Source of the DNA: a virus
Length of the DNA: 64,000 nucleotides
IMG/VR virus record: IMGVR_UViG_3300021068_000001
Coordinates: 1 to 64,000 of that record
Direction: 5' to 3' (one strand)
Part shown: positions 37,746-55,428 of the stretch, piece by piece
Numbering within the stretch: the stretch's first letter is position 1
Layout: each line of letters begins with the position of its first letter
Translations under genes and position numbers: made by a program
Notes under the pieces: model-generated
Database searches by the model: none
What the model was told of the DNA's origin: nothing
The model's input: the letters and a program-made list of their open reading frames with translations, nothing else

Positions 37746-38780
37746 ATGAAAAAATTATTAATGATATTATTTACAACTCTATTATTAGTAGGTTGTAATA
37801 CAAATAAAAGTATTAAAATAGAACAAGAAGTAGGTTTACTTCAAACTGTAAAAGAACGAGGTTATGTTGTATGTGGAGTTAATGCAGGCTTGCCTGGTTT
37901 CTCTGCTCAGGATGACGCAGGAAACTGGAGTGGTTTAGATGTTGACTTCTGTAAAGCAGTATCCGCTGGCATATTTGGAGATTCAAGTAAAGTAGAATTT
38001 GTAGGATTAAATGCTGCTCAAAGATTTCCAACATTAGCGTCTGGCAATATTGATGTACTTGCAAGAAACACAACTTGGACAATCAGTAGAGATGTGAACT
38101 TAATGTTTGAATTTGCAGGTGTTAATTATTATGATGGTCAAGGATTTTTAGTACCAACACATTTAGAGATTAGAAGTGCAACACAATTAGATGGTGCGTT
38201 TGTTTGTATTACAAAAGAAACTACAAGTGAATTAAATCTAAATGATTATTTTGCAGAAAATAATATGCAATATCAACCAATTTATGTTGAAGGTAATAAA
38301 GACGCAAAGGCAAAACTATTTGCTGGCGAGTGTGATGTATTTACTACAGACGCTTCTGGTTTAGCATCCGCAAGAGCAGGTGCAGAAGACCCTAGTAAAT
38401 GGGTAGTCTTACCAGAAATTATATCTAAAGAACCATTAGGTCCACTTGTAAGACAAGGCGACCAAGAGTGGGAAGATGTAATAAGATGGACACATTTCAT
38501 TATGATAAATGCTGAAGAGGCAGGTATTACTTCTGAAAATGTTGACTCAATGTTAGATAGTAAGAACAAAGAAGTTTTAAGAATTTTAGGTGAAGAAGGT
38601 TATATCGGTCCTATGTTAGGACTTGGTATGAAATTTGGTTATAATATTATCAAACAAGTTGGTAATTACGGAGAATCTTTTGAAAGAAACGTAGGACCAA
38701 AAACACCTCTTGCATTAGAAAGAGGACTAAATAAACTATGGAAGGATGGTGGCGTGATGTACGTACCACCAATCAGATAA
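37746..38780 (+). CDS. Periplasmic amino-acid-binding protein (AapJ/BztA-like) as a lipoprotein
   Basis: This 344-residue solute-binding protein of ABC-transporter cluster 3 type has TVKERGYVVCGVNAGLPGFSA, WSGLDVDFCKAVSAGIFGD, RFPTLASGNIDVLARNTTWTISRD, and a C-terminal AapJ-like LGLGMKFGYNIIKQVGNYGESFERNVG. The signal peptide ends L-V-G-C (C17), so the mature protein is probably lipid-anchored. AapJ proteins bind many L-amino acids. A phage copy may change amino-acid uptake late in infection. The transfer source is likely an alphaproteobacterium (inference). Confidence 0.88.
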   Translation: MKKLLMILFTTLLLVGCNTNKSIKIEQEVGLLQTVKERGYVVCGVNAGLPGFSAQDDAGNWSGLDVDFCKAVSAGIFGDSSKVEFVGLNAAQRFPTLASGNIDVLARNTTWTISRDVNLMFEFAGVNYYDGQGFLVPTHLEIRSATQLDGAFVCITKETTSELNLNDYFAENNMQYQPIYVEGNKDAKAKLFAGECDVFTTDASGLASARAGAEDPSKWVVLPEIISKEPLGPLVRQGDQEWEDVIRWTHFIMINAEEAGITSENVDSMLDSKNKEVLRILGEEGYIGPMLGLGMKFGYNIIKQVGNYGESFERNVGPKTPLALERGLNKLWKDGGVMYVPPIR

Positions 38781-40341: not shown

Positions 40342-40955
40342 TGAAAAAAAATATAATTAAAAAAGATAAAACTTTATTATTATTAATTGAGTTTGAAGGC
40401 GTTCCAGAAGCACAAGCCGACAATCTACTTGATGAGATTAGGTATAGTTATCTAAAAAGATTACTATTTGAGCACCCAGCAACTTCTTTACTTATTCTAT
40501 CAGACCACCGAAGAGCAAATACTAGAATAGCCGCAATATTAGATCATTTACAAGATAGTAGAAGAACACATACACATTCCATTGTGAATATTACACCAAT
40601 CAAAACAACAATGGAAGATATCTACTCTATAGCAGATGTCCAAGGTTATAATATTCAGAATGTTATTGTAGCAGGTTGTAATACAACAGGTTGTGTCTTT
40701 GAATCTATGCCTTATTCAGCAGTAAAATGGGCTCAAGCAGGCCATTTTGTACAGATAGTATTACCAATGTGTGGTGACGCTGACATACACGGTATAGGTC
40801 CTGAAAAATATATAAGATCATTTGCTCGTTTATATAAAAAAATTAAAAAGGCTAATGTTTTTAAAAATGTTGAAATAGTAAGTGAACTTCATACTGTGTT
40901 GCATTTTAATAATGGTGTGCAATCTAACAGATTTGATATAGAACCTAAAATTTAA
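40341..40955 (+). CDS. Isochorismatase/nicotinamidase-like protein
   Basis: The chosen ATG (40341) directly follows the small peptide; an upstream in-frame ATG at 40317 lies inside that peptide. The 204-residue protein has TLLLLIEFEG, matching the family's first strand (usually L-L-V-I-D, here Glu for Asp). VIVAGCNTTGCVFESMPYSAV-type sequence matches the nucleophile region, with C118. Family members hydrolyse nicotinamide, isochorismate or ureido compounds. The Asp-to-Glu change may alter activity. It ends 11 bases inside the convergent cyclase gene. Confidence 0.5.
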   Translation: MKKNIIKKDKTLLLLIEFEGVPEAQADNLLDEIRYSYLKRLLFEHPATSLLILSDHRRANTRIAAILDHLQDSRRTHTHSIVNITPIKTTMEDIYSIADVQGYNIQNVIVAGCNTTGCVFESMPYSAVKWAQAGHFVQIVLPMCGDADIHGIGPEKYIRSFARLYKKIKKANVFKNVEIVSELHTVLHFNNGVQSNRFDIEPKI

Positions 40956-42582
40956 TAGTATAGACGTTTATAGGTTCTTCTTTACCTTTTACTTTAATCT
41001 CATCAATATATTTAAAATTAAATCTTTCAAATAAAGGTTCTCTAGTATTTTCAGATATAACAATATCTTGTCCTAAAGTTTTACTTGAACTTTCCAATCT
41101 ACTTGCTAAATTAACAGCGTCTCCTATTACTGAATAATCAAACCTTTGTTCAGACCCCATATTACCTACAAGACATTGACCAGTATTGATACCTATACCT
41201 ATGTTTAAAGGTGGATCAAACTCTTTAGTTTTATTCATTAATGCTAGTTTTTGTTTCATCTCTTTAGCAGATTTAACTGCCATCTCTCTATGATTTTTAC
41301 AATCTAATGGTGCGTTCCAAAATGCCATAATACAATCACCCATATACTTGTCTATTGTCCCTTCATTTTTTAATATAATATTTGTCATTGCAGTTAGAAA
41401 CTTATTAACATAACGAGTAAGTTGTTCAGGATTATCTTTAAACCTTTCCGATATAGGAGTAAAACCTCTAATATCTGAAAATAAAAATGTTAATTCTTTT
41501 CTTTCCCCACCTAGTTTTAATAGAGAAGGATCTTTTTGTAATTTTTTAACCATACCAGGTGCAAGGTAATGCTCAAATTGTTTTTTGATTTGTAGTTTTA
41601 ATCTATTCTCTCTAGCAAAATTATTATAGATTAAATGAGACCATATAATACTTCCTATAATCATAGGAGTTATCCAATCAACCATTATCATATGTTGAGT
41701 CCATAGATAACCACTTGCAAGTGCTATATCAAAATAGAAACCTACTAAACATAATGCAGACCATAGTAATCCTAATCTAGGCATTATAATCAAAAGGAAT
41801 AATAAAGCAATTATAGTTATTCCTATTTCACTTATATACAACCAATTAGGTCTTGTAATAAACTTACCAGACAATAAAGTTTCTGTTGACAATGCCATTA
41901 TTTCGTGTGTGTTTTTTAAACCGTTTGGAGTAAGAACGAAAGTAGAACCTTTAAAGGTTGTTCCAATAAAAACTATTTTACCCTTCATAGATGACCAATC
42001 TTTATCAGTATAATCTATTCTAGGTATCTGGTGTCTGAAATCAATCCAAATATCGTCTTGGTTAGGTATTGGAAATTTAATGACTTTCAGTATAACACTT
42101 GGGACGGATTTGTCAAGCGGTAATTTTCTAATAGTACCATCAATATCAATAGGCACTTCTACATTTCCTACAGCAAGTGCTTTTCTCTCTATACTTTTTA
42201 GGTTTTTTGCTTGACTTGTTTCAGTTAATATGATAGGGTACTTGGTAATCATCTTCAAAAACATTTCATCACCACCTAATCTATCTTTATGTACAAAGAC
42301 TACATTTAAGAAGACTAGAGCTGCACCATTTTTATATGCGTTGATTATAGTACGACCTAATAAATCTCTTTTCCAAGGCCATTGACCAGATTTAACTAAA
42401 GCTTCATCCGAAATATCCAGGAGTACTAGACTTTTGGATTCGTAGTTATTCCCAAAATTTTGATAATTATCTAAAGCAGAAAGTCTTGTTTTTTGTATCA
42501 ATACAGGATTAGAAATATAGATTATAATCAATATTAAAGCAATCATCCATACAGACCATTTATTAGTTAGCAGTTTTATCAT
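40945..42582 (-). CDS. CHASE2-domain class III adenylate cyclase
   Basis: This 545-residue protein is the only minus-strand gene in the window. An N-terminal span (WMIALILIIIYISNPVLI) is followed by a periplasmic CHASE2 sensor (LVLLDISDEALVKSGQWPWKRDLLGR). Three further spans (about residues 245-325) and a cytosolic class III cyclase follow. The catalytic domain has FSDIRGFT (metal Asp, about 369), KYMGDCIMAFWNAP (second metal Asp; K for adenine) and DYSVIGDAVNLASRLE (D, N and R), so all key residues for ATP-to-cAMP conversion appear present. Its start is 58 bases from the divergent curli operon. Likely acquired from a bacterium; the signal sensed is unknown. Confidence 0.9.
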   Translation of the reverse strand: MIKLLTNKWSVWMIALILIIIYISNPVLIQKTRLSALDNYQNFGNNYESKSLVLLDISDEALVKSGQWPWKRDLLGRTIINAYKNGAALVFLNVVFVHKDRLGGDEMFLKMITKYPIILTETSQAKNLKSIERKALAVGNVEVPIDIDGTIRKLPLDKSVPSVILKVIKFPIPNQDDIWIDFRHQIPRIDYTDKDWSSMKGKIVFIGTTFKGSTFVLTPNGLKNTHEIMALSTETLLSGKFITRPNWLYISEIGITIIALLFLLIIMPRLGLLWSALCLVGFYFDIALASGYLWTQHMIMVDWITPMIIGSIIWSHLIYNNFARENRLKLQIKKQFEHYLAPGMVKKLQKDPSLLKLGGERKELTFLFSDIRGFTPISERFKDNPEQLTRYVNKFLTAMTNIILKNEGTIDKYMGDCIMAFWNAPLDCKNHREMAVKSAKEMKQKLALMNKTKEFDPPLNIGIGINTGQCLVGNMGSEQRFDYSVIGDAVNLASRLESSSKTLGQDIVISENTREPLFERFNFKYIDEIKVKGKEEPINVYTIKF

Positions 42583-42610: not shown

Positions 42611-42618
42611 TATAAATA
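42611..42618 (+). promoter_or_regulatory. T4-type late promoter of the curli operon
   Basis: An exact TATAAATA lies 22 bases before ATG 42641. The leader contains a GGGGAG ribosome site. It sits in the 58-base divergent gap with the cyclase gene. Confidence 0.7.
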
Positions 42619-42640: not shown

Positions 42641-43105
42641 ATGAGAATTATACTAACAATTTTAGTGTGGTTTTCTATGTTTTCTATGACGAATGCTAGT
42701 GAATTAGGATTTAAATTTGATAGTCCATCGTTTTCTGGTCAAGGAAAGTCATCACATTATTTAACAATTGAAAATATAGAGAAAACAAGAAAAGACGCAA
42801 TTAAGGCTGCGAATAAAGCAGCAGCAGATAAAGTAATAGCAGACGCCAAGGCAACAGCCATAGCAAAATTCAAAGCAAATGTAGAGGCAAGATTCTATAC
42901 AGCACTTGCTAAACAGCTTACAGATAATGTTTTCGGTACAGATGGTCTACAACAAGACTCTGGTACATTTACATCACCAATTGGTGGTGAAGTAGTTACT
43001 TGGGCAACAACAACTACAGGTAATAATGATACTGTAACCGTAACTGTTACAGAATCAGATGGTACCGTAACAACATTTACAATGCCTAAAGAGGACAATT
43101 CATAA
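42641..43105 (+). CDS. csgF: Curli assembly factor CsgF-like
   Basis: A signal peptide (IILTILVWFSMFSMTNA) precedes the mature start SELGFKFDSPSFSGQGKSSHYL. This matches the CsgF pattern of F-x-F-x-x-P-x-F-x-G near the mature N-terminus, the part that plugs the CsgG pore. An Ala/Lys helix and a Thr-rich C-terminus follow. In bacteria CsgF couples curlin nucleation to CsgG. It overlaps csgG by 1 base. Confidence 0.82.
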   Translation: MRIILTILVWFSMFSMTNASELGFKFDSPSFSGQGKSSHYLTIENIEKTRKDAIKAANKAAADKVIADAKATAIAKFKANVEARFYTALAKQLTDNVFGTDGLQQDSGTFTSPIGGEVVTWATTTTGNNDTVTVTVTESDGTVTTFTMPKEDNS

Positions 43106-44142
43106 TGTTAAGAGCAATAGGAATATTTTTATTAACATTGTTGTTAGTTAGTTGTGCTGGAAGACCTGATTTTGATGTACGAACCCAACCTGTACAATAT
43201 AAAGATTTAACTGAAATCAAATCACCAAAAGGCGATCCAATAGTGATTGCAGTTTATGATTTCCTAGATATGACAGGACAAAAGAAACCAGGTGGTAACT
43301 TTGCCTCAATGAGTACAGCGGTTACTCAAGGATCATATCAGTTATTAATTAAAGCATTACAGGATGCAGGTGATGGTAATTGGTTTAAAGTAGTAGAAAG
43401 AACAAGTCTCCCAAGTCTATTACAAGAAAGAAAACTAATTAGGTCTACAAGACAACAAGTTAATGGAGAAGGTGCAGAACCTTTACCACCATTATTATTT
43501 GCAGGTGCATATATCACAGGTGGTATAGTAGGTTACGATTCAGATATTAAATCTGGTGGTGTTGGTGCTAGAATTTTAGGCATACAAGCACATAAACAAT
43601 GGCGACAAGATGTAGTTACTGTTATATTAAGACTAGTTAATGTACAAACTGGTGAAGTAGTTGTATCAATTACTGTTGAGAAAACTATAATTTCAGGTGA
43701 AACTGGTGGCGATATATTTAAATATTTAGATACTGATACAATGTTATTAGAAGTTGAAGCTGGTGTTGCTAGAAATGAACCTGTTACTTATGCAGTAAGA
43801 AAAGCAATTGAAAAAGGTGTAGTAGAATTAATTAATGAAGGTGCTAAAAAAGATTTATGGGAATTTGATATACCAGTTGTAGAAATTACTGAAAAAAAAG
43901 TAATAGATTATACAAATAATACTGAAATAGGTGTACACGTTGATATGGGAGTGGTAAAAGAGGAAAAGACTTACGAAGAATACCTTGAAGAAAAGAAATT
44001 AAAAGAAGAAAACGAAGTAGCAGACGAGAAATTAAAAACAGAAGCTGCTGAAGAAGAATGGAACCAAATAGATACAGACGAGGAGGAGCAAGATGAAAAA
44101 ACTGATAATGATTCTAGTGACTCTGGTAACCCTAACCAGTAA
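43105..44142 (+). CDS. csgG: Curli secretion pore CsgG-like lipoprotein
   Basis: The lipoprotein signal ends L-V-S-C (C17). The 345-residue protein has CsgG features: IVIAVYDFLDMTGQKK, WFKVVERTSLPSLLQERKLIR, LLFAGAYITGGIVGYDSD, and QDVVTVILRLVNVQTGEVV (transmembrane hairpin region). An acidic tail of about 60 residues (EEEWNQIDTDEEEQDEK) exceeds the bacterial protein. CsgG forms a nonameric outer-membrane channel. The curlin-like gene starts inside its 3' end. Confidence 0.9.
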   Translation: MLRAIGIFLLTLLLVSCAGRPDFDVRTQPVQYKDLTEIKSPKGDPIVIAVYDFLDMTGQKKPGGNFASMSTAVTQGSYQLLIKALQDAGDGNWFKVVERTSLPSLLQERKLIRSTRQQVNGEGAEPLPPLLFAGAYITGGIVGYDSDIKSGGVGARILGIQAHKQWRQDVVTVILRLVNVQTGEVVVSITVEKTIISGETGGDIFKYLDTDTMLLEVEAGVARNEPVTYAVRKAIEKGVVELINEGAKKDLWEFDIPVVEITEKKVIDYTNNTEIGVHVDMGVVKEEKTYEEYLEEKKLKEENEVADEKLKTEAAEEEWNQIDTDEEEQDEKTDNDSSDSGNPNQ

Positions 44143-45187
44143 TTGCTGGGCAGGTAATTCAGTTTGGATTCAGCAAGATAACCAAAACAGCAACAACTCT
44201 ATCTTTATAAAACAAGATGGTACAGGCAACACGGTTGGTTATAGCACATCATATCCATTTAAAATAGATGGAGAGAACATCACCATCATCATTAAACAAA
44301 TAGGCGACAATAATAAAACTGATTGGTCAAATCATAACTCTTTTAAAGGTGATGATATGACTTTTGATTATACAGCAACTGGTGATTCTAATACATTGAG
44401 ACCAGATATTGATGATACAGGTGCTGATGGTCATTATTATGACATAGATATTACAGGTGATTCAAACAATGTAGATTTTGATACTTGGACGGCCGATGAT
44501 GTACAGAAAACTAATGTTGATTTAGATATTACAGGTGACTCAAATGTTTTTTGGGTGCGTAGTAGAGGTGATGGTCATTTCTGGTATGTTCTTATGTCTG
44601 GCGACTCAAATAATGTACAAATTTATACCACAGCAGATTCAGTAGGATTTAATACAAACTCCAATAAGGCTATTGGTCCACAAACAACATCACACGGACA
44701 ATTTGCAGATAGTTCAGGTAGTGAAGGCGCAAGTGCCGACATTTATATTATTGGTAATTCCAATACACTACACACTTCATCATACGGTACAGGCAATTAT
44801 CAACTACACGATATTATAGGTAATGATAATCTTTTAGATATTCATTCTAGTTATACTAGTGCCGATAGCGACCCATATGGAGATACAATGACGATATTAG
44901 GTGATAGCAATTGGTTAAGAACAATAATAAATGGTGATGATAACACAATAAGATTACATATGGCAGGTGGAAATAATACTGCTAGAATTTTCCTTTATAC
45001 AGATGATTCAGTAATAAACTTTGCTCAAGTGGGTGGTGGTAATACTGGTAAGGTAACTATCACAGGTGATTCAATTTACGATTACACATTAAACTTTTCA
45101 CAAGACGGTTCAGATAATTGTACATACTCATATAATAGAAATAATCAAACAGCAGACGTAACTGCTACAGTATCAAACGGTTGTTAA
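44093..45187 (+). CDS. Curlin-repeat (CsgA/B-like) secreted protein
   Basis: A signal peptide (MKKLIMILVTLVTLTSNCWA) precedes about 340 residues rich in G-D-S-N-x-x repeats. WIQQDNQNSNNSIFIKQDGTGN at the start fits the curlin repeat (S-x-N-x-x-x-x-x-Q-x-G-x-x-N), and TGDSNxx units recur through the protein. It is longer and more Asp-rich than CsgA (about 130 mature residues). A beta-solenoid or amyloid fibre exported through CsgG is inferred. It overlaps csgG by 50 bases. Confidence 0.75.
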   Translation: MKKLIMILVTLVTLTSNCWAGNSVWIQQDNQNSNNSIFIKQDGTGNTVGYSTSYPFKIDGENITIIIKQIGDNNKTDWSNHNSFKGDDMTFDYTATGDSNTLRPDIDDTGADGHYYDIDITGDSNNVDFDTWTADDVQKTNVDLDITGDSNVFWVRSRGDGHFWYVLMSGDSNNVQIYTTADSVGFNTNSNKAIGPQTTSHGQFADSSGSEGASADIYIIGNSNTLHTSSYGTGNYQLHDIIGNDNLLDIHSSYTSADSDPYGDTMTILGDSNWLRTIINGDDNTIRLHMAGGNNTARIFLYTDDSVINFAQVGGGNTGKVTITGDSIYDYTLNFSQDGSDNCTYSYNRNNQTADVTATVSNGC

Positions 45188-45188
45188 A

Positions 45189-47345
45189 ATGAAGAAGTTA
45201 TTTTTATTAGTATCAATCTTGGTACTTTTATGTACTAGTCTTTCCTCAGCACAAATAACAGGACCTAAAGTAGGTACTGTATCAGGCCAAATGGGTACTA
45301 CTTGGAATGAGCGTGATGGTCAAACTGAAAATACAGCAATGGGTTATGAGTTGCAGATGAACGACTTTCTCCAAACTGGAGAAGATGGTGGTATGATTTT
45401 ATCTTACGTTGATGATACTAAATTTACAATGGGACCAAATACAGAATTAGTTATTGATGAATTTGCTTTTGATACTTCTTCTGTACCAATTGAAATTGCA
45501 ATGAACATATCAGTTAATGTAGGTTCATTTACATATGAATCAGGTCAAGTATCCAATTTAGGTGGTGAAGTTAATATCAATGCTGGATTCGCTACAGTTA
45601 CAGTACAAGGTACTGCCTTTTCAGGAACAGTTGACACTAGTGGTGAGGTTACAATTACCTTACTACCAGATAGTGATGGTGATATAGGGTCTGTAACGGT
45701 CTCTAATGACGCAGGTTCTCAAACCATAACTAACGCATACAATTCAGTAACAGTTGTGTCAAACGACCTGACACCAACTCCTCCAAAGATAGAAACTAAT
45801 AAATCAGACATTATTGAGTTAGAAGAATTTGAAGAAGATATAAAAGATGAATCAACAAAAACTTTTGGTGATGTAGATAAAAAATCTGAATTGTCTAAAG
45901 ACGAACAAGAAGCTCAGGAAATGGAAGAGGCGATAATAAATGAAGAGGCAAGTATTGTAGAAAATAGTGATACAATTGTTGCTACAGATTTATCTGCTAG
46001 TGAAGCAGATACAATGATTGAAACAAAATCAGTAGAAGAAAATACTTTAGTTGAAGTAGATGAAGTTGATACATCTTACTATGATGAATGGGAAGATGAT
46101 TTAAAAGATTGGGGTTATATAGATGAAGACAACCAGATTTCAGTTTGGGATGCCGAAGGTGAAAAAACTATGGATTGGGATGACGCAAAGAAAATGTATG
46201 CTGAAATGGACCAAGCATACTTTGACGCTATTGGTTGTTCAGATTGTACCTGGGATACTATTGATTGGGATACTATTGATTGGGACGCTGTAGATTGGGA
46301 CGAATATTCGGACAAATATAATGAACTATTAGAAGACTATGGTTTAACTTCTTGGAATGTTGATGTAGATGAACAAGATGTTGTTGAAGATACAAAAGAT
46401 GAAACAGAAGCAACTGTTGTTGAAGGATATACTTGGGAAGATTTTGCTTTAGATGATGACTATTATAATAATAATGAATACAAAAACGCAGGTGGTCCTC
46501 CGACATTAACAGTACAAAACTATTGTGAGTACAATGGCTATGATGATTACTGGTGTAACCAAGATTATGTTGATTATCTAAATGACTGGTACAAAGATGA
46601 TTGGACTTTAAAAGTAACCAATGATAGTTGGACTAAAGAATCTAAAAAGATATTTGGTAAACTATATGGTTGGTGTGGAAGTTGGCCAAACTATAAAATG
46701 TGTGATGACCAGCCTAAACCTTGGAAGATGAAAGACTTAAAGAAGACTTATATAACTAATTGGAGTTGGGACGATTGGGACATATATTGGGACGCATTAT
46801 ACGATTGGTGGTGGACAGGTTACGATTATAATAATGAAGATGATGAGAGTAATTGGGAAGATGAATATTCTTATGAAGATGACTATGATATAGACGCAGA
46901 ATTGGAAATATTATTAGCAAGTTATGATGAGGAAGATTGTTTAAATTATGGATACTATTGGGACAATGCAAATCAATCCTGTGGTACAGAATGGGTTGAC
47001 AATAGTGGTTCAGAAACACAGGTAACTGCTAGTGGTGAAACTTTAAATTATACTACTGGAGATGTAACTCAAACTTTAACTACAACAAGTGGTGGTGTGT
47101 CAACAAGTACCACTTCAACAGGAAGAGTTTCAACGTTAGATAACGACTTTAACGCAACAGCTTCAACCTCTGGTGATTACACAATCATAAATAGATATAA
47201 CGACAATCATAGGGCTTATATTAAGGTTGAAACTTCCAAGACAGCTGATATTCAAATTTTACAAGATTCAGAAGCACAGAATATAGATGTTGGCGATATT
47301 ATACCTCCTGGATACCCATACATAACAATAATACAGACGGACTAA
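45189..47345 (+). CDS. FecR-domain exported protein with Trp/Asp/Tyr-rich region
   Basis: A signal peptide (FLLVSILVLLCTSLSSAQ) precedes a FecR-like domain (about residues 35-190: GTVSGQMGTTWNERDG, LQTGEDGGMILSYVDDTKFTMGPNTELVIDEF). Residues about 215-295 are acidic. Residues about 295-600 are remarkably rich in W, D, Y and E, with repeated D-W-D units (DWDTIDWDTIDWDAVDWD). A Ser/Thr-rich beta C-terminus follows. It is the last gene of the curli block. I infer an extracellular partner or an adhesive matrix protein. Confidence 0.68.
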   Translation: MKKLFLLVSILVLLCTSLSSAQITGPKVGTVSGQMGTTWNERDGQTENTAMGYELQMNDFLQTGEDGGMILSYVDDTKFTMGPNTELVIDEFAFDTSSVPIEIAMNISVNVGSFTYESGQVSNLGGEVNINAGFATVTVQGTAFSGTVDTSGEVTITLLPDSDGDIGSVTVSNDAGSQTITNAYNSVTVVSNDLTPTPPKIETNKSDIIELEEFEEDIKDESTKTFGDVDKKSELSKDEQEAQEMEEAIINEEASIVENSDTIVATDLSASEADTMIETKSVEENTLVEVDEVDTSYYDEWEDDLKDWGYIDEDNQISVWDAEGEKTMDWDDAKKMYAEMDQAYFDAIGCSDCTWDTIDWDTIDWDAVDWDEYSDKYNELLEDYGLTSWNVDVDEQDVVEDTKDETEATVVEGYTWEDFALDDDYYNNNEYKNAGGPPTLTVQNYCEYNGYDDYWCNQDYVDYLNDWYKDDWTLKVTNDSWTKESKKIFGKLYGWCGSWPNYKMCDDQPKPWKMKDLKKTYITNWSWDDWDIYWDALYDWWWTGYDYNNEDDESNWEDEYSYEDDYDIDAELEILLASYDEEDCLNYGYYWDNANQSCGTEWVDNSGSETQVTASGETLNYTTGDVTQTLTTTSGGVSTSTTSTGRVSTLDNDFNATASTSGDYTIINRYNDNHRAYIKVETSKTADIQILQDSEAQNIDVGDIIPPGYPYITIIQTD

Positions 47346-54911: not shown

Positions 54912-55009
54912 TGAAATTAGGGGGATACAATCATACACAGACAGCTCTTAAACCGTCCCAGGAGGCGGCTATGAGAGGATTATTCCACGGAAATATGAGG
55001 AAACAATGA
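54911..55009 (+). CDS. Possible small peptide, 32 aa (GTG start)
   Basis: GTG overlaps the previous stop and the TGA overlaps the next ATG. The sequence LGGYNHTQTALKPSQEAAMRG with GLFHGNMRKQ is not obviously random, but the start codon and missing ribosome site keep this uncertain. Confidence 0.35.
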   Translation: MKLGGYNHTQTALKPSQEAAMRGLFHGNMRKQ

Positions 55010-55428
55010 GAAACGGATATTTTGCAGTTGTATTGAATAAAGAGAGCTGTGATGCTGTGAGGAAATATTCCACGATGGAAGATGTAAAAGGAGACCATAT
55101 TACACTTGCATATAAACCAGATGATAAAACTTATGAACAGTTAAACGGATTGGTTAATGAGGATGTTGACGCTTATATTAGTGAGATAAGATCAAATAAA
55201 AATATAGAAGCATTGTGGGTTGACGAAATGAACTTAACTAGATTTCCATCAATAAAATTAAAAAGATTTAATCCAGGCCCAGCACACGTTACAATATCAC
55301 ATAAGAAAGATTTTAAATCTGGTGACGCAAATAGTATGTTTAAAGATCCAGACCACCTTGTTCCAGTAGACCATACACACGAATTGGGATATTTGAAAGG
55401 TACAGTTAAATGGATATCATATGAGTGA
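55006..55428 (+). CDS. 2H phosphoesterase-like protein
   Basis: This 140-residue protein carries two H-x-T motifs, H31-I-T33 (GDHITLAYKP) and H94-V-T96 (PAHVTISHKK), separated by 63 residues. This fits the 2H phosphoesterase superfamily, which cleaves cyclic phosphodiesters, including 2',3'-cyclic ends and signal nucleotides. Size and spacing are near those of the phage anti-CBASS nuclease Acb1. Homology to Acb1 is a hypothesis only. Confidence 0.6.
   Translation: MRNGYFAVVLNKESCDAVRKYSTMEDVKGDHITLAYKPDDKTYEQLNGLVNEDVDAYISEIRSNKNIEALWVDEMNLTRFPSIKLKRFNPGPAHVTISHKKDFKSGDANSMFKDPDHLVPVDHTHELGYLKGTVKWISYE

Follow-up and report, generated by a model that had tools for sequence, protein, structure and literature searches.

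An adenylate cyclase and a FecR protein have been described in the type VIII secretion (T8SS, curli) modules of pelagiphages, and both were stated to lie outside the T8SS operons of bacteria (Wittmers et al. 2022, PMC9599517). In phage HTVC008M, the genes for CsgF, CsgG, curlin, FecR and a CHASE2 cyclase are located at one site (gp014–gp019), with the cyclase gene being the last in the operon. The same order is found in the Melnitz phages, which are OM43 phages (MZ577095-98).

The DNA analysed here, referred to as the window, comprises positions 1–64,000 of a virus record of 170,818 bp. The five components csgF, csgG, curlin, FecR and cyclase are also co-located in the window, which corresponds to the composition of a phage T8SS/curli module. 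The cyclase shows 35% identity to that of HTVC008M and 30% to that of the Melnitz phages. It differs from HTVC008M in its position, since it is divergent from csgF, and its sensor belongs to a separate branch with 28% identity to the HTVC008M sensor. The Melnitz cyclase (L083) has Ser instead of the transition-state Asn, and Asp at the position of Ser484; because of these two exchanges its activity is uncertain and is possibly altered or lost. The first-pass annotation of the window had proposed a search of pelagiphage genomes for synteny. This search led to annotated homologues in HTVC008M and Melnitz, in both cases in co-directional modules. The novelty which the same annotation implied was overstated, as cyclases of pelagiphage curli clusters were published in 2022 (PMC9599517) and HTVC008M has one. 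A cyclase in a phage curli module is already known in kind.

The cyclase and the curli genes of the window

The features of the locus are as follows.

40945–42582, minus strand: CHASE2-class III adenylate cyclase, 545 aa (ORF; Pfam CHASE2 and Guanylate_cyc; AlphaFold model)
41794–42540, minus strand: CHASE2 sensor domain, residues 15–263 (Pfam, model helices, hydropathy)
40954–41499, minus strand: class III cyclase catalytic domain, residues 362–543 (Pfam, conservation, PDB matches)
42611–42618, plus strand: T4-type late promoter sequence TATAAATA, directed towards csgF (invariance in 21 aligned loci)
42641–43105, plus strand: csgF, type VIII secretion, curli (Pfam CsgF, E 5e-10)
43105–44142, plus strand: csgG, curli outer-membrane pore (Pfam CsgG, E 3e-49)
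44093–45187, plus strand: curlin-like fibre protein of CsgA/B type (position; QxGxxN/GDSN repeats; Curlin_rpt match weak, below cut-off)
45189–47345, plus strand: FecR-like secreted protein with the curlin-like C-terminal tail ITIIQTD (homology to FecR of HTVC008M and L028; phrog_37870)

The window was thought to encode a complete sensor-type class III cyclase, and this is borne out by the reading frame, the Pfam domains and the full set of catalytic residues. The reading frame starts with ATG and contains no internal stops. In the Pfam search of the protein, CHASE2 (PF05226) was found with E 7e-26 and 91.8 bits (cut-off 26.3), and Guanylate_cyc (PF00211) with E 2e-25 and 90 bits (curated cut-off 21.9). 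The model and the hydropathy profile place transmembrane helices on both sides of CHASE2, the N-terminal one at about residues 8–24 and the others after residue 245. The catalytic set consists of D370 and D416 for the metals, K412 and S484 for adenine, and N491 and R495 for the transition state. These positions are kept in nearly all of the phage homologues (n = 73); K412 is invariant and S484 is present in 72 of them. A Lys combined with Asp, Thr or Ser is the criterion for an adenylate rather than a guanylate cyclase, and K412 with S484 agrees with it. The AlphaFold model, built with 37 sequences, has a mean pLDDT of 87, and its catalytic half resembles P. aeruginosa CyaB (3r5g; TM 0.84 over the target) and also cyanobacterial CyaC (1wc0). 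The catalytic fold and residues are shared with these two enzymes, whereas the sensor domains differ. By its sequence, the window protein is a plausible adenylate cyclase, predicted to produce cAMP.

The window belongs to a marine T4-like phage (record G000), as shown by its terminase, tail sheath, portal and major head protein, all of which have PHROG matches. The Pfam domain Portal_T4 (PF07230) was rejected as a phage marker, as it matched just 2 of 13 related records, and the PHROG hits settled the identity instead. The DNA polymerase of the record shares 59% identity with that of Pelagibacter phage Mosig, and Rz-like spanins are encoded close to the cyclase site. From the relatives HTVC008M and Mosig, we infer a SAR11-type host. 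A phage-borne family 3 solute-binding protein with lipoprotein-like features is encoded near the curli site at 37746–38780 and is also present in L028; bacterial proteins 52–56% similar to it are encoded in L139 and L157, in the vicinity of CHASE2 cyclases. The small protein at 55006–55428 contains two HxT/S-like motifs, seen by eye, which resemble those of 2H phosphoesterases. It was considered as an Acb1-like/2H phosphodiesterase partner and dropped, as searches of Pfam and PHROG gave no match and those of the PDB none that was convincing.

Gene order and the late promoter

The cyclase gene had been regarded as the sole gene on the reverse strand. Within the 64-kb window this holds: no other gene on the minus strand is convincing, and the GC and AT skews dip at the cyclase alone. 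In the whole record it does not, since 28 minus-strand ORFs (at least 80 aa, non-overlapping set) were found, most of them in blocks at 84.9–91.2, 109.3–119.7 and 126.8–128.9 kb of the record; the cyclase is thus not the only reverse gene of the phage. A chimeric junction at 42.6 kb is excluded, as the identical junction is present in about 20 other contigs. On the 40.95 kb side, the cyclase of contig L043 is followed by a convergent gene homologous to the SGNH-like gene that lies second from the cyclase in the window.

The usual order, in which the cyclase follows FecR in the same direction, is variable and is not that of the window, where the gene is placed upstream of csgF and is divergent from it. 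Both orders are found among the relatives, the divergent one recurring in more than 20 contigs, and both occupy one place in the genome, upstream of the genes for DUF7201, primase and ribonucleotide reductase. The gap between the cyclase and csgF, which begins at 42641, comprises 58 bases, as earlier claimed. It contains the late promoter sequence, and the motif [T/C]ATAAATA towards csgF is invariant in all 21 aligned divergent loci. The sequence TATAAATA occurs 8 times in the 64-kb window, always on the plus strand, against 16 times in shuffles. This rarity and the bias to one strand are what a sequence set aside for late promoters would be expected to show. Across the full record, 29 copies are found on the plus strand and 1 on the minus strand, though about 20 kb of genes are on the minus strand.

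In the co-directional loci, the late motif is located upstream of csgF in 13 of 17 cases and is missing between fecR and the cyclase gene in 16 of 17; the only exception is Melnitz, where it directly precedes the cyclase. Since the motif precedes csgF and not the cyclase in these relatives, the cyclase would normally be part of the late curli transcript. In the window the gene is turned and located on the other side of csgF. It would therefore be outside the late transcript and could differ in its time of expression. For the cyclase itself no convincing promoter was found, with 12 sigma70-like matches compared to 12.3 in shuffles. The divergent order of cyclase and csgF, with a late promoter facing csgF, appears to be new here.

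Secretion modules, sensors and FecR proteins

The first-pass annotation had linked the cyclase to surface-fibre genes. This link proved to be very strong. Curli/FecR or type I secretion genes are present in 94 of the 95 cyclase loci with at least 700 bp of upstream sequence and a near-full cyclase, a count biased towards these phage clades by the collection of loci through cyclase similarity. When viral sequences were scanned with the L084 cyclase, a longer protein, a second phage module was found, in which the cyclase gene, of a related clade, follows a type I secretion set:

L060:131-9839, L084:3-7718, L182–L240: FecR-cadherin-RTX adhesin, TolC-like OEP, 248-aa membrane protein, HlyD, then CHASE2 cyclase

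No Pfam match was obtained for the 248-aa membrane protein, which resembles the transmembrane half of an ABC transporter without the ATPase domain. In L183 both modules adjoin each other and two cyclases are encoded; two cyclases are also present in L024/L242 (one contig), L030 and L246. A search of open papers for phage type I secretion together with a cyclase returned nothing relevant. As judged on this literature, the second module, which pairs the cyclase with a FecR-cadherin-RTX adhesin and TolC/HlyD export, appears to be new. In bacteria, the CHASE2 cyclases of L104, L117, L143 and other loci of Bradyrhizobium type are preceded by FecR-domain genes, either immediately or at a distance of a few kb. 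Some of these FecR-domain genes are giant and cadherin-like, such as that of L104 (1739 aa).

To obtain separate trees of sensor and catalytic halves, the cyclases were divided where the transmembrane part ends. Sensors cluster by secretion module (T1SS 99, window-type curli 100). The catalytic halves of the same proteins reject the grouping by module with p-AU values of 2e-72 and 3e-83, which are indicative, as the groups were named after the context had been seen and the trees are of a quick type. Individual pairs illustrate the same pattern. The cyclases of L031 (curli) and L203 (T1SS) share 31% identity in the sensor and 98.6% in the catalytic half; those of L044 and HTVC008M share 29% and 85%, respectively. 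The catalytic half of the window cyclase is 73% identical both to that of L183 (T1SS-type) and to that of its nearest curli relative L002, and its sensor shares 32% with the former and 84% with the latter. In terms of sequence, the sensor stays with its secretion module and the catalytic output half is exchangeable between modules. Such fidelity is as expected if CHASE2 recognises something module-specific. That enzyme halves have often moved from one sensor half to another appears to be new, again as judged on open literature. This swapping provides natural evidence for a matching of CHASE2 to the module, and could make the question of the CHASE2 ligand approachable via the FecR proteins.

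The mosaic nature of the proteins also bears on the history of the gene order. A single origin of the divergent order is supported by the full-length tree (95/93), yet it is not claimed here because the proteins are mosaics and the other trees need several changes: two in the sensor-only tree and about three in the CsgG tree. From the latter, L242 was set aside as a mislabelled duplicate of L024.

The FecR proteins differ between the two modules in their C-terminal ends. An I-x-I-x-Q tail, which resembles a strand of the curlin repeat, is present on all 57 curli-linked FecR proteins (ITIIQTD in the window) and on none of the 8 adhesin-linked ones, which have other endings such as DVTVVT. The 8 proteins without the tail correspond exactly to the type I module loci and the other 57 to the curli loci; the adhesin query matches every FecR domain. 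By chance, the tail is found in 4 of 196 ORFs of the window phage. The FecR-like protein of the window has no match to Pfam FecR, but its homologues do. Because the tail matches the fibre, the FecR domain may travel with the exported fibre or dock on it. The shared curlin-like C-terminal tail of the curli-linked FecR proteins appears to be new here.

Possible role of the cyclase and comparison with known systems

We propose that the window encodes the inner-membrane cyclase of a phage-borne curli (type VIII secretion) module, which would sense FecR or fibre export and signal by cAMP; we give this proposal an even chance of being correct. The FecR protein with its curlin-like tail may travel with the fibre or cap it, the periplasmic CHASE2 domain would read the state of its own module via the FecR-domain protein, and this reading of FecR or of the export state would be converted into cAMP. 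In most relatives the cyclase gene closes the late curli operon, and that of the window would be free for another timing of expression. If this is true, a phage cAMP sensor tied to adhesin export would constitute a signalling circuit foreign to the host.

Few cells in the ocean are as abundant as SAR11-type bacteria. The host family was reached via two genomes matching a SAR11 16S probe sequence from the literature, and 60 genomes of the family were searched. The cNMP-binding domain PF00027 is present in just 2 of the 60 and was not found in the whole phage record. Class III cyclases (PF00211) were likewise found in 2 of 60 genomes and CsgG in the same two, where csgG and the cyclase are a few kb apart on short contigs. 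These short MAG contigs with csg modules and cyclase (G393:C1 and G429:C11; L179, L180) are probably phage contigs binned with the host. The sampled SAR11-type genomes, which come from fragmentary collections, thus mostly lack class III cyclases and CRP-type receptors, which raises the question of what would read the cAMP.

These data bear on the earlier suggestion that a phage cAMP source could rewire the catabolite control of the host, for which a CRP-like regulator would be the route. In its favour, K412 and S484 mark the protein as a credible adenylate cyclase, and Wittmers et al. (PMC9599517) cite the control of curli by cAMP-CRP in E. coli, which acts via csgD. The suggestion nevertheless has to be regarded as improbable, since most SAR11-like hosts, and the phage as well, lack the canonical means of reading cAMP, the few class III cyclases of the family are probably of phage origin, and pelagiphages do not have CsgD (PMC9599517). 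The absence of a canonical receptor leaves room for another target, such that the cyclase might counter a nucleotide-signal defence or supply a non-canonical receptor that has nothing to do with curli. The data implicate neither a defence gene nor a receptor, and the strict linkage to secretion modules points elsewhere, which makes this extremely unlikely.

The cyclase may instead time the stickiness of the infected cell, leading to sibling capture or exclusion of competitor phages, with cAMP controlling the fibre rather than reporting on it. The linkage to two different surface-adhesion systems agrees with this, and ideas of "sibling capture" and superinfection have been put forward (PMC7029224, PMC9599517). 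It seems rather unlikely, however, as Melnitz showed no clumping (PMC9004378) and no cAMP receptor is known. Beyond our proposal of a cyclase that senses FecR or fibre export, a wider and more tentative view is that T4-like marine phages possess a self-contained, modular second-messenger system, in which swappable cyclase outputs are placed on sensors dedicated either to curli or to FecR-cadherin-RTX/type I secretion. As the hosts lack a canonical receptor, this view would call for some cAMP reader in the infected cell.

Among bacteria, a Caulobacteraceae MAG contains csgF-csgG-curlin-curlin-fecR-CHASE2 cyclase in one direction (L085:5992-12049), with clearly bacterial flanks. This operon appears to be new here and qualifies the statement on bacterial T8SS operons in PMC9599517. 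Since the entire six-gene operon is present in this MAG, joint acquisition of the complete set is possible. A bacterial operon of the same content would also allow the cyclase to be a passenger with no selected role in the phage. This is very improbable: the catalytic residues are retained over 73 divergent phage proteins, the gene was relocated and yet kept in many phages, and catalytic domains have been exchanged while sensors follow the modules.

The proposed coupling of FecR and CHASE2 is supported by known pairs. In Sinorhizobium, the CHASE2 cyclases CyaD1, CyaD2 and CyaK combine CHASE2 with a class III cyclase, as does the window protein, and make cAMP upon an outside signal relayed by an outer-membrane barrel protein (PMC13001267). 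There, the cAMP is read by the CRP-type Clr and the outer-membrane protein is NsrA, whereas no such reader was found in most SAR11-type hosts. The BiofilmReg operon of Burkholderia encodes a periplasmic FecR-domain protein next to a CHASE2 sensor histidine kinase and is tied to biofilm formation (PMC5192318). Its output is the histidine kinase with a response regulator, while that predicted for the window is cAMP.
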